Assembly: GCA_902514095.1 (NCBI GenBank)
Contig: CABXPS010000002.1
Location: forward strand, 1-51,492
DNA: 51,492 nt
DNA from: an uncultured marine group I thaumarchaeote
Lineage (GTDB): Archaea > Thermoproteota > Nitrososphaeria > Nitrososphaerales > Nitrosopumilaceae
Reading direction: 5' to 3'
A model generated the notes under the pieces. It made no database searches, was not told where the DNA came from, and was given only the letters and a program-made list of their open reading frames with translations. A program made the position numbers and the translations under genes. Of this stretch, positions 3,231 to 24,484 are shown in pieces (position 1 is the first letter of the stretch; every line of letters begins with the position of its first letter).

Positions 3231-6200
3231 TTGGTACATGTTAAAAAAGTAGAAATCTTTGGTTTCAAATCATTTGGATTTAAAAACACCACTGTTCAGT
3301 TTGAACCTGGACTTGTATCTATCTCAGGTCCAAATGGATCTGGTAAGAGTAACATTTTAGATGCAATAATTTTTGCAATGGGTGAAAATAAGCCAAAAGT
3401 AATGCGAGTTGATAAACTAAGATCTTTAATTCATGATATTGAAGGAGCTCGTCGTGGACCTAAAATGGCACGATCAAGTGTCCACTTTGATAATTCTGAT
3501 AGAAAAATCCCTATTGATACTGATGTAGTTGAGATAACTAGAGAATTAGATGAATCTGGTGATAACACATACTATCTAAATAAAAAGAAAACTCAACGAA
3601 GTCATATTCTTGATTTACTTGACATGGCAAATGCTGGTCTTGGACAACTTAATGCAGTTCAACAAGGAACTGTCACTAGGATATCTGAATTTTCATCTGA
3701 AGAAAAAAGAAAAACAATTGAAGATTTAATTGGTTTGTCTTATTTTGATGAAAAGAAATCTGAATCAATCAAACAACTTGATGAGGCAGATAGACGACTT
3801 GAAATTGCACTTGCTAAAATGGGTGAAATTAAGAAACGAATTGATGAATTGGAAGAAGAAAGAAATCAAAAATTACGTCATGATATTCTGGAACGTGAAT
3901 TAAATAGATACAAAGCAATTGCTGCTGCTAATAAAATGAAGGTAATATCTGGTAAAAAATCAGATAAAGAGACAACATTACATGGGTTGACACAAGAAAT
4001 GACCTCCCTTAACGATGAACGAACTATTTTGAAGAATGAGATTGGTGTATTAGAATCTGAAAAATCAAAATTGATGACTGCTGCTAATGATTATACTCAG
4101 GCAAAATCTGCACTTGACATTGAAATTAGTTCTGCAATGGAACAATATGAAATTGATAATACTGCAATTACTGCATCAGAGAAAAGACTTGATCAAATTG
4201 ATACACGAACCCCCCAAATTAAAATTGAATTAAAAGAGATTGATGATGCTAGAAAAGATATAGACACTCAAATTCAAAAAATTAAAGATTCTATTGAAAC
4301 TACTAATAAACAAAAAAATAAAATTAATGCCGATTTAGAATTAATTGATTTAGACAGAAACAAAATTCTTACAGAACAATCTGAAGCAGCAGCAAAAAAA
4401 TCTGAAGTTGATGATAAACTTAAAATTCTTAATGCCCAACTAAATGCTGTTAAACTAACACTTTCTAAAGTACAAAATGAAAAAAAGGAATCTAAATTAA
4501 AAATAGAATCTAATTCAAATAAATTTACCCAATTAGAAAAAGATATTGGAGAATTAACTAGTTTAGAATCTAAATTATCTTCACTAACTAATAATCACAA
4601 TGCTACAATTTCTGAACTAAAGTCTAGAATTTCAAAATTAAAAACAAGAAAATTAAAAATAGTCCATGACATGGATGAATTAGGATTTATTTTAGAAAAA
4701 TCTGGTAAAGCTGCAAATCAATATGAATCAAAAATTAAAACTGTAAAAGGGTTTATGCATGAGGACTACACTGTTGCAAAATTAAAAGAAGATGCTGCTA
4801 AACTTGGTATTGATGGCTTAGTTTACGAAATGATTTCATGGGATAAAAAATATGAGCGTTCTGTTCTTGCAGTTAGTTCTGATTGGATAAAAGCGTTAGT
4901 TGTAAAAGATTTTGCAACATTACTTGGAATTGCTGAGGTTGCAAGATCTAAAAAACTTCCAAAATTAAAAATTATACCTCTGGATGCTATTCCAAAATTC
5001 AAACTTACTCTACCAAAAGAATCTGGTGTCATTGGTGTGTTATCTGACTTTGTAAAGTCTAAAGATGCCTATTCTGCACTCAAAACCTTCCTATTTGGCA
5101 ATATTGTATTAGTTGAAACTCGTGAATCTGCTTATAATTTGTCTCAATTAGGTTACAAATCTGTGACTCTTGATGGTGAATATTTTGAGGCTAAAGGCGG
5201 TACTGTTGTAATTGACATTAATTCAAAAATTTCTAAACTTACAAAACTAATTTCAATGAGTACTGATATTGATGGATTAATTCAATCTATTAGTTTAATT
5301 AAAAAATACATGTTAAAGAAAAAACATTCATTAAAAAAATTAGATGATTCTATTCAATTATATTCTGAAAGACTTTCTATTTCTGAAAATGCTTTAACAT
5401 CTACCACTGAAAATCATTCTAATCTTAAATCTAGAATTCTTTCTGCTAAACATATGAAAGAAAAATTAACAAAAAGAATTTCTAATTTAACTTCAAGGAA
5501 TAATATTGTTGAATCTGAAGTATCTACTAATGAATCTCATGTTGAATCATTACTTGATCGTATTTCTATTGTTGAACAAAATTATGCTAGTGGAGAGCAA
5601 ACTAGAATTGCAAGTGAGTTATCAAAAATTAATATTAAAAAATCTAATATTGAAAAATTGTATACTACAATTATGAATGAGTATCGTGATAAATCCTCAC
5701 AATTAACTACTATGCAAACTCAAGACAATCGTGAAAAATCTCAAACAAGTAGATTAACTGATGAAGAAACTTCGTTACATTCTGAATCTGAACAAATTAA
5801 AATAAAAATTCAAGAATTAGAAAAACAAAAAGATCCTAAAAGAGCAATTTTAGAAAAATTAAGAGAAAAAGAACAAGATTTAATTTCAACTTCTGGATCT
5901 TCAATTGGTGAAGTACAAGAAATAGATGATAAACTCAAAACTCTATCTGAAAAAGATAGAGATAGTACTAGACAAATTAATAATTTAGAACGTAAATCTG
6001 ACTCATTAACTCGTGATTTACATGATTTAGTTGAAAATGAAGTTAAACTCCAACAAATTCTTTCTACATTTGGATTTGATAAAGACATGGAAACATTTGA
6101 TGTTGAGACTATTGTTCAAGGGTTAAACTCCGAATTATCCTCACTTAATGCATTAAATGCAAAAGCTCCTGAAACATATCTTGAAGTTTCATATGGGTAT

Positions 6201-21322: not shown

Positions 21323-22819
21323 GTGTCATCTCAGCCACGAATTGAAATTCAAGGACAGGCACCATTTAAACAATCAGGTGTTTATGAAGCCCAAATTTCA
21401 ATAACCAACACTAAACCATCTGATGATGAAATTAAAACTAAACAATTTTCCCACCTATGGCAAGGTCATTTTCATCTTAGTGTTAAAGATGGTGTTTTTT
21501 CTGAAATAATTGGTGATTCTAAAAACCCTTTGCCTTCATCAATTAATGATGTTGATACTATTTGGGTTATTGTAAATGATTTATTTTCTTCATTATATTC
21601 TATTTTTGATGTTACATTAAGAAAAACTTCTGATGAGAAAAAAAGTACTGTTAAAAAAGAAAAAAATGATGTAATTTCTGAACCACCAAAAACTAAACGT
21701 TCCTCTAAATCTACTTCAAATTCTGGTTCACCTGGGTCTACTGGTGTAAGAGGTGCAACTGGATTACCGGGACCACTTGGTCAACGAGGTCCATCTGGTG
21801 ACAAAGGTCCATCTGGTGCAAAAGGTCCATCTGGTCCATCTGGTGACAAAGGTCCACAAGGAGACAAAGGTCCAACTGGTGTTACTGGTGACAAAGGTGA
21901 TAAGGGTGACAAAGGAGTTACTGGTCTATCTGGTGATAAGGGTGACAAAGGTCCAACTGGTGTTACTGGAGATAAAGGTGCAACTGGATTAAAAGGATCA
22001 ATTGGTTCAACTGGTGACAAAGGCGAAAAAGGTCCAACTGGTGTTACTGGAGATAAAGGTGCAACTGGATTAAAAGGTGCAACTGGTCCAACTGGTGAAA
22101 AAGGACCAACTGGACTTTCTGGCGATAAAGGAATTTCTGGAATCCGCGGAATTCCTGGATTAAAAGGTGACAAAGGTCCACAAGGTGCTATTGGAGATAA
22201 AGGATTAACTGGACCTGTTGGAATTTCTGGCGATAAAGGACCAACTGGTACATCTGGAGTTCAAGGAGAAAAAGGAATTCACGGTGCTACTGGCCCTATA
22301 GGAGAAAAAGGAACTACTGGTCCATCTGGTGACAAAGGTCCACAAGGTCCACAAGGTGTTGCAGGATCTAAAGGATTAACTGGAGTTCCAGGTCCACAAG
22401 GAGAAAAAGGAGAAAAAGGTCTGATTGGCCCTATAGGAGAAAAAGGAACTACTGGTCCACCTGGAATTTCTGGTGACAAAGGCCAACAAGGTCCACAAGG
22501 AACACAAGGTGAACGTGGAACTACTGGTCCATCTGGAGAAAAAGGTCCACAAGGTCCACAAGGAATTCAAGGTCCACAAGGTGAACGTGGTCCAGCTGGC
22601 CCAATTGGTTCTATTGGAGAACCTGGCCCTATTGGAGGACAAGGTCCTGTAGGTCCAGCAGGTCCACGAGGTCCACCTGGTCCGCCTGGAGAAAAAGGTC
22701 CATCTGGTGGTATGTCTCCAGAACAAAAGGCTATTTTCAAAGAACTTTTAGAAATTTTAACAACTAAAGAAATCATTAGTACTGAAGAACAAATTAAATT
22801 GATGAGTTATTTGTATTAA
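21323..22819 (+). CDS. Collagen-like protein (109 uninterrupted Gly-X-Y triplets)
   Basis: 498 residues in three parts. Residues 1-134 form a globular domain (start [16 protein letters not shown]) ending in a charged Lys/Ser linker. Residues 135-461 are 109 perfect Gly-X-Y triplets. Residues 462-498 form a short helical tail ([18 protein letters not shown]). Many triplets are GDK, GEK or GPx; Lys-Gly-Asp/Glu neighbours can stabilise a triple helix without hydroxyproline. No signal peptide or membrane anchor is visible, so its location is unclear. The start is GTG 21323 because an in-frame TAA sits at 21311. I infer a trimer; the function is unknown. Confidence 0.9.
21725..22705 (+). repeat. 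Collagen Gly-X-Y coding repeat with internal perfect DNA duplications
   Basis: Nine-base codon periodicity (GGN-X-Y) throughout. Two longer exact copies stand out: 50 bases at 21947-21996 repeated at 22028-22077 (81-base offset, nine triplets), and 34 bases at 22291-22324 repeated at 22426-22459 (135-base offset). Both offsets keep the triplet frame, which indicates growth by in-frame duplication. Confidence 0.9.
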
Positions 22820-22880
22820 TTTTACTTTTTAATTTTATTTGAACTTAGATAGTTTTCACTCAACACATTAGAAAAATGAA

Positions 22881-22909
22881 AACAATTCGTCGTCTATATG
22901 ACGATTGTT
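22881..22909. terminator. Hairpin between convergent collagen-like and H1-like genes
   Basis: AACAATTCGTC (22881-22891) pairs with GACGATTGTT (22900-22909) with one bulged T and an 8-base loop. It lies between two genes that converge on it, so a bidirectional terminator or mRNA 3'-end structure is plausible. No T-run follows directly on either side. Confidence 0.4.
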
Positions 22910-22924
22910 AATTTACAAACGAGT

Positions 22925-23089
22925 TTATCGTCTTTTTGCTGCTTTTCTCTTTGGAGCTGCTTTGCGTTTTGCTGCTGCCTTTCTCTTTGGAGCTGCTTTT
23001 CTCTTTGGAGCTGCTTTTCTATTTGGAGCTGCTTTGGTAGATGCTTTAGTTGATCTACGTTTAGTTGCAGCTTTTCTTTTTGTAGCCAT
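22925..23089 (-). CDS. Histone H1-tail-like Lys/Ala/Pro-rich basic protein
   Basis: A 54-residue ORF (ATG 23087-23089, TAA 22925-22927) that reads MATKRKAATKRRSTKAS and then repeats of KAAPKR, ending KAAKRR. About half of its residues are Lys or Arg; Ala and Pro fill most of the rest. This is the composition of eukaryotic H1 C-terminal tails and of some bacterial DNA-condensing proteins. I infer nucleic-acid binding or condensation. Hydrophobic (FLFGAA-rich) and Gln-rich frames overlapping it on the two strands are artefacts of the same repeat DNA. The upstream AT-rich region 23090-23150 probably holds its promoter. Confidence 0.85.
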   Translation of the reverse strand: MATKRKAATKRRSTKASTKAAPNRKAAPKRKAAPKRKAAAKRKAAPKRKAAKRR

Positions 23090-23374
23090 GTTAAAATCGA
23101 TATTTTCATTGTTTTTCAGTGGTTAAACTAAAAAAATTTACACAAATTGATTACAATTATTGAAGTAATTTTATCCTACAAAATTCTTTTTGATCGTATT
23201 TTTTTAAAAATTTTAATTTCTTTTTTTAAATTATTTTGTAATTTTTTAAAATACTGCCTATTTTAGAAATTTTTACGCATGTAATTCGTTATTTTGAAAC
23301 AATTATTATGATTTTTTATTTTTTTAATTTAGATTTATTTTGTTTTATTGATCTGTAATCTTTGTTTTACCAAA

Positions 23375-24484
23375 TTAAATTCCTCTTCTTTTGATAATTG
23401 TGAATACATCTTCATCTTGCATAATGTGATTCAAACCAACTCTTTGTCCTCCAAATTTCACACTTTTACCCCAAACTAATCCATATCTGAATTGTCTTTT
23501 TAATCTACGGTGTAATTTGTTACAAATATCTTCAACTGTATCTCCTTCTCTTGCAATAAATGGTTCTTTGAAATCTGTCTCTCCTCCTTTGGGTCGCATG
23601 TATATCCTGATAAATTTTAATTTTTCATATATTTTTTCTTTTAGAACTTCTATATTGATATCTGAGTTTGCTGATACTTCAATTACGTCTGATTTTATTT
23701 TTGTTTTTAGATCTAATAAAAATTTCTTGTCTACCAAATCAATTTTATTTAAAACTGTAATTGCTTTTGAATAACTAATATTTCCTGCAATGTGATCTGC
23801 AATTTGTTCTGATGTAATGTCTTCTCTTACTACAACTCGTGCACTAACTAATCCATAAAGATGAAGAATATCTTTAAGATGTTTTTCTGTAATTTTTGTG
23901 AGCTTAGTTTGTTGTGCAATTGCAATGCCTCCCATTGATGCTTTTTCAATTGTAATATTTGGAGGTAATTGATTTAATCTAATTCCAATATTTCCTAATT
24001 CATTTATTAAAACATCTTCGTGATATGGTTGAAACACATCTAATATCAATAAAACTAAATCTGCTGTTCTTGCAACTGATAAAATTCTTTTACCTAATCC
24101 TTTTCCTGATGATGCTCCTTTGATGATTCCTGGAAGATCTAAAACTTGAATTTTTGCACCTCGATAATCCATCATTCCTGGAACAACTGTTAATGTAGTA
24201 AACTGAAATGCACCTATTGTAGAATTTGCACCTGTCATTTTATTTAGTAATGTTGATTTTCCAACACTTGGTAATCCTATGAATACAACTGTTGCATCTC
24301 CGCTACGCCGAACATCAAACCCATCTTGTTTCATTCCAGATTTTTTGGTAACTTCTGCTTCTTGCTCTCTTTTTAATTTTGCAATTTTTGCTTTTAGTAA
24401 GCCTATGTGATGCTCAGTTGCCTTGTTAATCTGAGTTCTTGCCATCTCATCTTGGATGGATTTAATTTTTTCAGGAATTCCCAA
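23375..24484 (-). CDS. DRG-family GTPase with C-terminal TGS domain
   Basis: A 369-residue GTP-binding protein of the developmentally-regulated (DRG/Obg-related) family. An N-terminal helical region (residues 1-60) is followed by G1 GLPSVGKSTLLNK, G3 DLPGIIKGASSGKGLG, G4 NKID and a TGS domain at the C-terminus (RPKGGETDFKEPFI, then VEDICNKLHRRL). The family is implicated in ribosome-associated translation control in eukaryotes and is universal in archaea. Length and motif order are normal. It is preceded by a 161-base spacer and followed by a long AT-rich spacer. Confidence 0.94.
   Translation of the reverse strand: MGIPEKIKSIQDEMARTQINKATEHHIGLLKAKIAKLKREQEAEVTKKSGMKQDGFDVRRSGDATVVFIGLPSVGKSTLLNKMTGANSTIGAFQFTTLTVVPGMMDYRGAKIQVLDLPGIIKGASSGKGLGKRILSVARTADLVLLILDVFQPYHEDVLINELGNIGIRLNQLPPNITIEKASMGGIAIAQQTKLTKITEKHLKDILHLYGLVSARVVVREDITSEQIADHIAGNISYSKAITVLNKIDLVDKKFLLDLKTKIKSDVIEVSANSDINIEVLKEKIYEKLKFIRIYMRPKGGETDFKEPFIAREGDTVEDICNKLHRRLKRQFRYGLVWGKSVKFGGQRVGLNHIMQDEDVFTIIKRRGI

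Follow-up and report, generated by a model that had tools for sequence, protein, structure and literature searches.

Within the window – the whole 51,492-nt stretch of DNA analyzed here, which is contig 2 of a 53-contig, 873-kb, 71% complete assembly whose closest relatives carry the name Nitrosopumilus – a minus-strand open reading frame at 22925-23089 translates to MATKRKAATKRRSTKASTKAAPNRKAAPKRKAAPKRKAAAKRKAAPKRKAAKRR followed by a stop. The 54-residue product, referred to below as family A, consists almost only of Lys, Arg, Ala, and Pro (15 K, 10 R, 17 A, and 4 P), as the original prediction stated. It has a predicted pI of ~12 and no acidic or aromatic residue. The predicted resemblance to histone H1-like tails is fair at this level of composition (K/R/A/P, no acidic residue). 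The gene and the features around it are as follows, with the basis for each in brackets.

21323..22819, plus: collagen-like protein (PF01391), convergent downstream neighbor, common but not obligate (Pfam)
22868..22880, minus: T-rich tract, terminator-like, after the stem-loop (sequence on the gene's strand)
22881..22909, minus: stem-loop AACAATCGTC-loop-GACG-A-ATTGTT, directly 3' of the stop codon (conserved pairing)
22925..23089, minus: K/R/A/P repeat protein (family A), 54 aa, ATG to TAA (ORF translation, kept frame, substitution pattern)
23102..23151, minus: conserved upstream element, -62 to -13 from the ATG, consensus around TGTaATCAatTTGTGTAAaTTTnTTTAGTTTAACcActGAAAAAcaATGAAAAT (conservation between loci)
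23375..24484, minus: Drg-type GTPase (MMR_HSR1 + TGS), upstream neighbor and synteny anchor, no partnership claimed (Pfam)

Conservation and genomic context

Orthologous loci were anchored on the upstream Drg GTPase, and the best 80 of 158 relatives were examined. This small-ORF search in relatives, proposed with the original prediction, identified a family A gene or remnant at 69 of the 80 Drg loci, on the same strand and mostly ~300 nt after the Drg stop. Forty copies are complete, 26 are truncated where the contig stops within the gene (L047, which starts MVTKRK, among them), one contains an N gap, and two are frameshifted (L103 and L104). Frame-disrupting differences in relatives had been set beforehand as refuting; just these two frameshifts were found among the 69 loci, and the prediction withstood this check. 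Among the remaining 11 loci, three contigs end too early to judge (L062, L073, L081), two short contigs have the collagen gene directly after Drg (L038, L106), and six of the 80 have no family A gene at the Drg locus despite ample sequence (L051, L076, L105, L108, L110, and L111, with the L108 record labelled Cenarchaeum and the L110 record Nitrosopelagicus). Its absence from six loci and its broken state at L103 and L104 imply that family A is not essential everywhere.

The degraded copy in L103, a Nitrosarchaeum genome (Baikal), lies after position 5104 and retains an intact MATKRK start with a disrupted remainder. The 26 copies interrupted by contig ends represent about a third of the assemblies at these 80 loci, making the gene a recurrent assembly breakpoint that will consequently be missing or truncated in many MAGs.

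Family A was found almost only in Nitrosopumilaceae. A class-wide search matched 67 of 400 genomes, 65 of them within this family, and at all six loci fetched from four further Nitrosopumilaceae genera the gene sits beside Drg. The two matches from outside Nitrosopumilaceae (G227 and G236) were not counted, as no ATG-started K/R-rich ORF of at least 24 aa was present at the fetched loci.

The upstream element is more conserved than its surroundings: mean pairwise identity is 0.78 within it, 0.53 for four-fold sites of Drg, and 0.44 between -130 and -82 (68 loci; 1,014 of 2,278 pairs kept, the others having <75% ungapped Drg protein identity or <50 comparable four-fold sites). Its 21-base core (≤2 mismatches) occurs in 71 of 95 genus genomes – once per genome, except for two copies in G022 – and a backwards control pattern gave two matches. 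The stem-loop forms a mean of 9.6 of 10 pairs across 40 loci, compared with 6.5 when its 3' side is shuffled, and includes a few compensating changes (L095, L088, L091). These patterns suggest that the upstream element is probably a gene-specific promoter or leader, and we read the hairpin plus T-rich tract as terminator-like. Having an upstream element and a terminator-like hairpin to itself, the family A gene looks monocistronic. Between the terminator and the convergent gene, the motif AGTGNNAACT (22851-22860, minus) recurs at the same place in relatives and is often hairpin-like (TAGT-GNNA-ACTA or CAGT-GNNA-ACTG).

The PF01391 match at 21323-22819 confirms that the adjacent gene is collagen-like. 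Of the 40 complete loci, 34 have ≥700 nt of sequence after the stop; among these, the collagen-like gene is present at 30 and absent at four; it is also found at six of 10 loci without an intact family A copy (Fisher p = 0.06). Its adjacency is thus common synteny, not an obligate association. The window's collagen-like gene starts with GTG and its product ends in a short non-collagen C-terminal stretch; such genes are widely kept beside Drg in Nitrosopumilaceae, including at some loci without the K/R gene.

Coding evidence and the overlapping frames

The gene was predicted to lie between two misleading overlapping frames, and both are present: a Gln-rich frame at 22894-23109 (minus) and a hydrophobic frame at 22905-23126 (plus). 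Consistent with the choice of the K/R/A/P frame, substitutions in frame-blind DNA alignments of 31 disjoint ortholog pairs fell at codon positions 1/2/3 in a ratio of 99/84/182, a third-position excess with a chi-square p of 1e-10 when sites are treated as independent, which repeats strictly are not. The synonymous share in this frame was 47% versus 25% expected (173 synonymous, 192 not). A count guided by the protein sequence gave 219 synonymous and 95 nonsynonymous changes; its alignment introduces a bias, so we relied on the frame-blind figures. Because relatives preserve the frame at the same position and substitutions favor it, the ORF is more than chance; the choice of frame appears right, and we take 22925-23089 to be a real protein-coding gene.

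Four of the other five frames lie near their expected synonymous share. The fifth, the hydrophobic antisense frame, reaches 41% versus 27% expected, a signal it carries because it has its wobble base in common with the sense frame; at sites where the two are discordant, the count is 37 to 15 for sense. The antisense frame lacks internal stops in 39 of 40 orthologs, and automatically so, since a stop would need a sense Tyr, His, or Gln codon and almost none is present. (The frame-openness check used 40 ORFs selected with a narrower pattern, including the frameshifted L104; a wider pattern gave 41 complete ones.) The hydrophobic character of the antisense frame persists in diverged orthologs (eight proteins checked), which made this control uninformative. 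Codon evidence by itself does not separate antisense from sense; the kept ATG and the terminator orientation argue for sense. Taking these together with the discordant sites, we rejected the hydrophobic frame as a product. We also rejected the Gln-rich frame, which has internal stops in 14 of 40 orthologs (13 of 39 without L104), and a structured RNA, for which all four Rfam matches fall far under their cut-offs.

Composition, length, and related proteins

These comparisons support a real gene with a kept frame, its own upstream element and a terminator-like hairpin, and a product whose composition, but not length, is kept. Across 41 complete proteins including that of the window (3,395 aa), residues are 29.5% A, 29.2% K, 18.9% R, 8.3% T, and 6.8% P, and D, E, F, W, and Y are absent from all 41. 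Some repeat units are lineage-specific (AVVRKAVRR in Nitrosarchaeum, TTRRKTTRK in H13 and D6), with K+R still at 0.42-0.53, suggesting that charge, rather than exact sequence, is conserved. The start (MATKRKAATKRRST) and the end (KAAKRR) are conserved in most copies.

Complete copies range from 24 to 170 aa (median 75, n = 41), the shortest being 24-36 aa (L096, L044, L107), and in all 25 pairs with ≥86% Drg identity the two lengths differ. Ten single-contig genomes encode copies of 85-170 aa, implying that length drift is not just an assembly effect:

G001, 110 aa; G003, 159 aa; G006, 126 aa; G007, 99 aa; G008, 85 aa
G010, 113 aa; G036, 144 aa; G092, 170 aa; G093, 109 aa; G094, 89 aa

We presume the 126-aa G006 copy to be the Nitrosopumilus maritimus SCM1 ortholog. 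In the window itself, exact repeats as long as 26 nt occur within the ORF, and the assembly has 53 contigs at 71% completeness; the printed repeat number is therefore uncertain, and a longer array may have been collapsed during assembly.

We observed further proteins with basic tails. Family B proteins open with a ~50-aa Ala/Lys/Arg segment (MAVSKAKRAEAAKKAARTRKRNAAKKAAEALKAA...) and continue through KAAPKR repeats to a KAAKRRR end. The family occupies another conserved place, beside a ~134-aa protein, with copies at:

L123, 737-1120; L126, 487-879; L128, 846-1244
L131, 643-1035; L134, 627-998; L135, 883-1281

A family B query matches 72 of 95 genus genomes, some of these matches being family A. 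Families A and B have exact DNA stretches of 28-41 nt in common in three genomes, which could account for breaks in assembly or indicate gene conversion. Family C (L002 1345-1617, minus; C22 in the window's own genome) has a Lys/Ala-rich N-terminal tail and a short C-terminal segment that is weakly SWIB-like (16 bits, cut-off 25); it resembles NCBIfam topoisomerase/SWI fusions, far below cut-off. In the window, a Trm61/GCD14-type tRNA methyltransferase (PF08704; 34363-35286, plus) ends in an H1-like K-A-T/K repeat tail (KAKATTKAKTTTK...).

The window protein has no Pfam match at E ≤ 10, hence none to linker histone H1 (PF00538) or the histone fold (PF00808). No Pfam or NCBIfam model scored above cut-off for the family A proteins searched, and a PDB sequence search with the 170-aa ortholog returned no match. 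At most, family A would resemble an H1 tail or Hc2 in how it works; on these searches it is not a member of those families. It has much more Arg than the eukaryotic H1 C-terminal domain. That domain is likewise K/A/P-rich and of low complexity (described in PMC9239181), though family A differs from H1 in having no globular domain (no Pfam match).

Among bacterial proteins, chlamydial Hc2 (hctB, PF07382) has Lys-rich H1-like repeats and, like family A, varies in length with repeat number – 165-237 aa as reported in PMC2848022 – a common property rather than homology. Two orthologs score 10.9 and 11.5 bits against PF07382 (cut-off 40) and the window protein has no match. Unlike Hc2, family A is Arg-rich, built of KAAPKR units, archaeal, and mostly shorter, and the likeness is probably convergent. 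The best weak model match is to the Burkholderia histone-H1-like NF038053 (18.3 bits to the longest ortholog, cut-off 80), which does not match the window protein. The C-terminal KPAA regions of Pseudomonas AlgP/PhaF, for which DNA binding is reported (PMC9239181), are also K/P/A-rich, of low complexity, and variable in repeats; the AlgP tail follows a helical N-terminal domain, whereas family A is a tail alone, its whole ORF being low-complexity and basic. In archaea, a Lys-rich candidate nucleoid-associated protein of Methanomassiliicoccales (WP_019177984.1), compared here by its description, is likewise small and basic: it is reported as 74 aa with a pI of 9.64, detected by mass spectrometry and chosen among single-gene operons (PMC7613761). 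Our search of the open-license literature, mostly titles and abstract openings, found no description of family A in Nitrosopumilaceae, which is weak evidence of novelty.

A candidate DNA-condensing polycation

We propose, with a probability of roughly 0.58, that family A condenses DNA together with Alba and histone, as an H1-tail-like polycation lacking any domain. The product would probably be disordered – in effect a free-standing histone H1 tail – and would bind DNA electrostatically, helping to condense or bridge the Nitrosopumilaceae chromosome alongside Alba and the single histone. Selection would preserve both ends of the protein and its basic composition; slippage or recombination would let the count of KAAPKR-type units drift. 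Fixed ends, constant charge, free length, and the lack of a domain are what is expected of a flexible polycation; we infer its disorder, DNA binding, condensation, and abundance. Polycations of like composition are reported to bind DNA in bacteria, namely AlgP repeat peptides (PMC9239181) and Hc2, a Lys-rich H1-like repeat protein (PMC2848022). As the H1-like repeats of both bind DNA and both vary in repeat number, we consider DNA condensation or bridging the most likely role. We also count the two further K/R-tail families (B and C) in genomes of the genus in favor of the originally predicted chromatin role, which is plausible. Counting against it, copies of only 24-36 aa (L096, L044, L107) would condense DNA poorly.

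The predicted Alba gene at the window start is real (3-293), though cut by the window edge. It lies ~23 kb from the family A gene and is not an operon partner. Alba has three matches in the window's own genome. Histone is encoded by 84 of 95 genus genomes and was not found in the own genome's 71% complete assembly.

RNA or ribosomes are equally possible targets for a polycation of this type. Disordered polybasic proteins bind RNA just as well as DNA, and Drg is a translation-linked GTPase. Because composition is blind to DNA versus RNA and Drg is the neighbor, the main rival is an RNA- or ribosome-associated protein that binds rRNA or mRNA in translation or ribosome storage, perhaps with Drg. 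The constancy of the Drg synteny, which extends to all six loci from four other genera, and the K-rich tail of the Trm61-type tRNA methyltransferase in the same window are consistent with this role. However, the gene's own upstream element and terminator-like hairpin, ~300 nt from Drg, mean that the synteny need not reflect shared function, and the window protein has no RNA-binding domain (Pfam); we regard this role as a tentative alternative, a good deal less likely than DNA condensation.

A role in polyphosphate binding or granule organization is suggested by Pseudomonas AlgP, whose H1-like KPAA-repeat tail of variable repeat number is reported to associate with polyphosphate granules (PMC9239181). 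Unlike the Pseudomonas setting, however, the genus has no recognizable polyphosphate kinase (PPK1, PF02503, and PPK2, PF03976, each in 0 of 95 genomes, with control genomes matching), and family A lacks AlgP's 124-aa helical N-terminal domain, making this role quite improbable. An envelope or extracellular polycation acting with the convergent collagen-like protein would fit the 30 of 34 complete loci at which that gene is next, but the MATKRK-like start without a signal-peptide-type hydrophobic stretch (41 proteins), the four complete loci that lack the collagen gene, and the six of 10 that keep it without an intact copy leave it very improbable indeed. That the locus encodes no such protein – but a slipping DNA repeat, a structured RNA, or a product in another frame – is scarcely credible. 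In its favor, repeats occur in every frame, conservation of the upstream element and hairpin is high, and the antisense hydrophobic frame stays open in 39 of 40 orthologs; against it, the synonymous and third-position excesses favor sense, the Gln-rich frame has stops in 14 of 40, antisense openness is automatic, and no Rfam family reaches its cut-off.

If family A does condense DNA, it would bear on DNA compaction in one of Earth's most abundant archaeal lineages, for which this conserved, compositionally extreme basic family is a direct candidate, and would suggest convergent use of H1-like tails in archaea.

A survey that sought new nucleoid proteins reported the N. maritimus histone at <0.06% of the proteome (PMC7613761); as described there, this abundance survey was probably blind to family A. 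In a bolder and rather doubtful extension of the DNA-condensing reading, the Nitrosopumilaceae chromosome would be run mainly by H1-tail-like polycations (families A, B, and C) rather than by histone, a set that would have been overlooked because family A gives almost no tryptic peptides of detectable length. In 37 of the 41 complete orthologs, every fully tryptic peptide is shorter than seven residues, so trypsin-based proteomics would usually miss the family; the longest tryptic peptide of the window protein is five residues.
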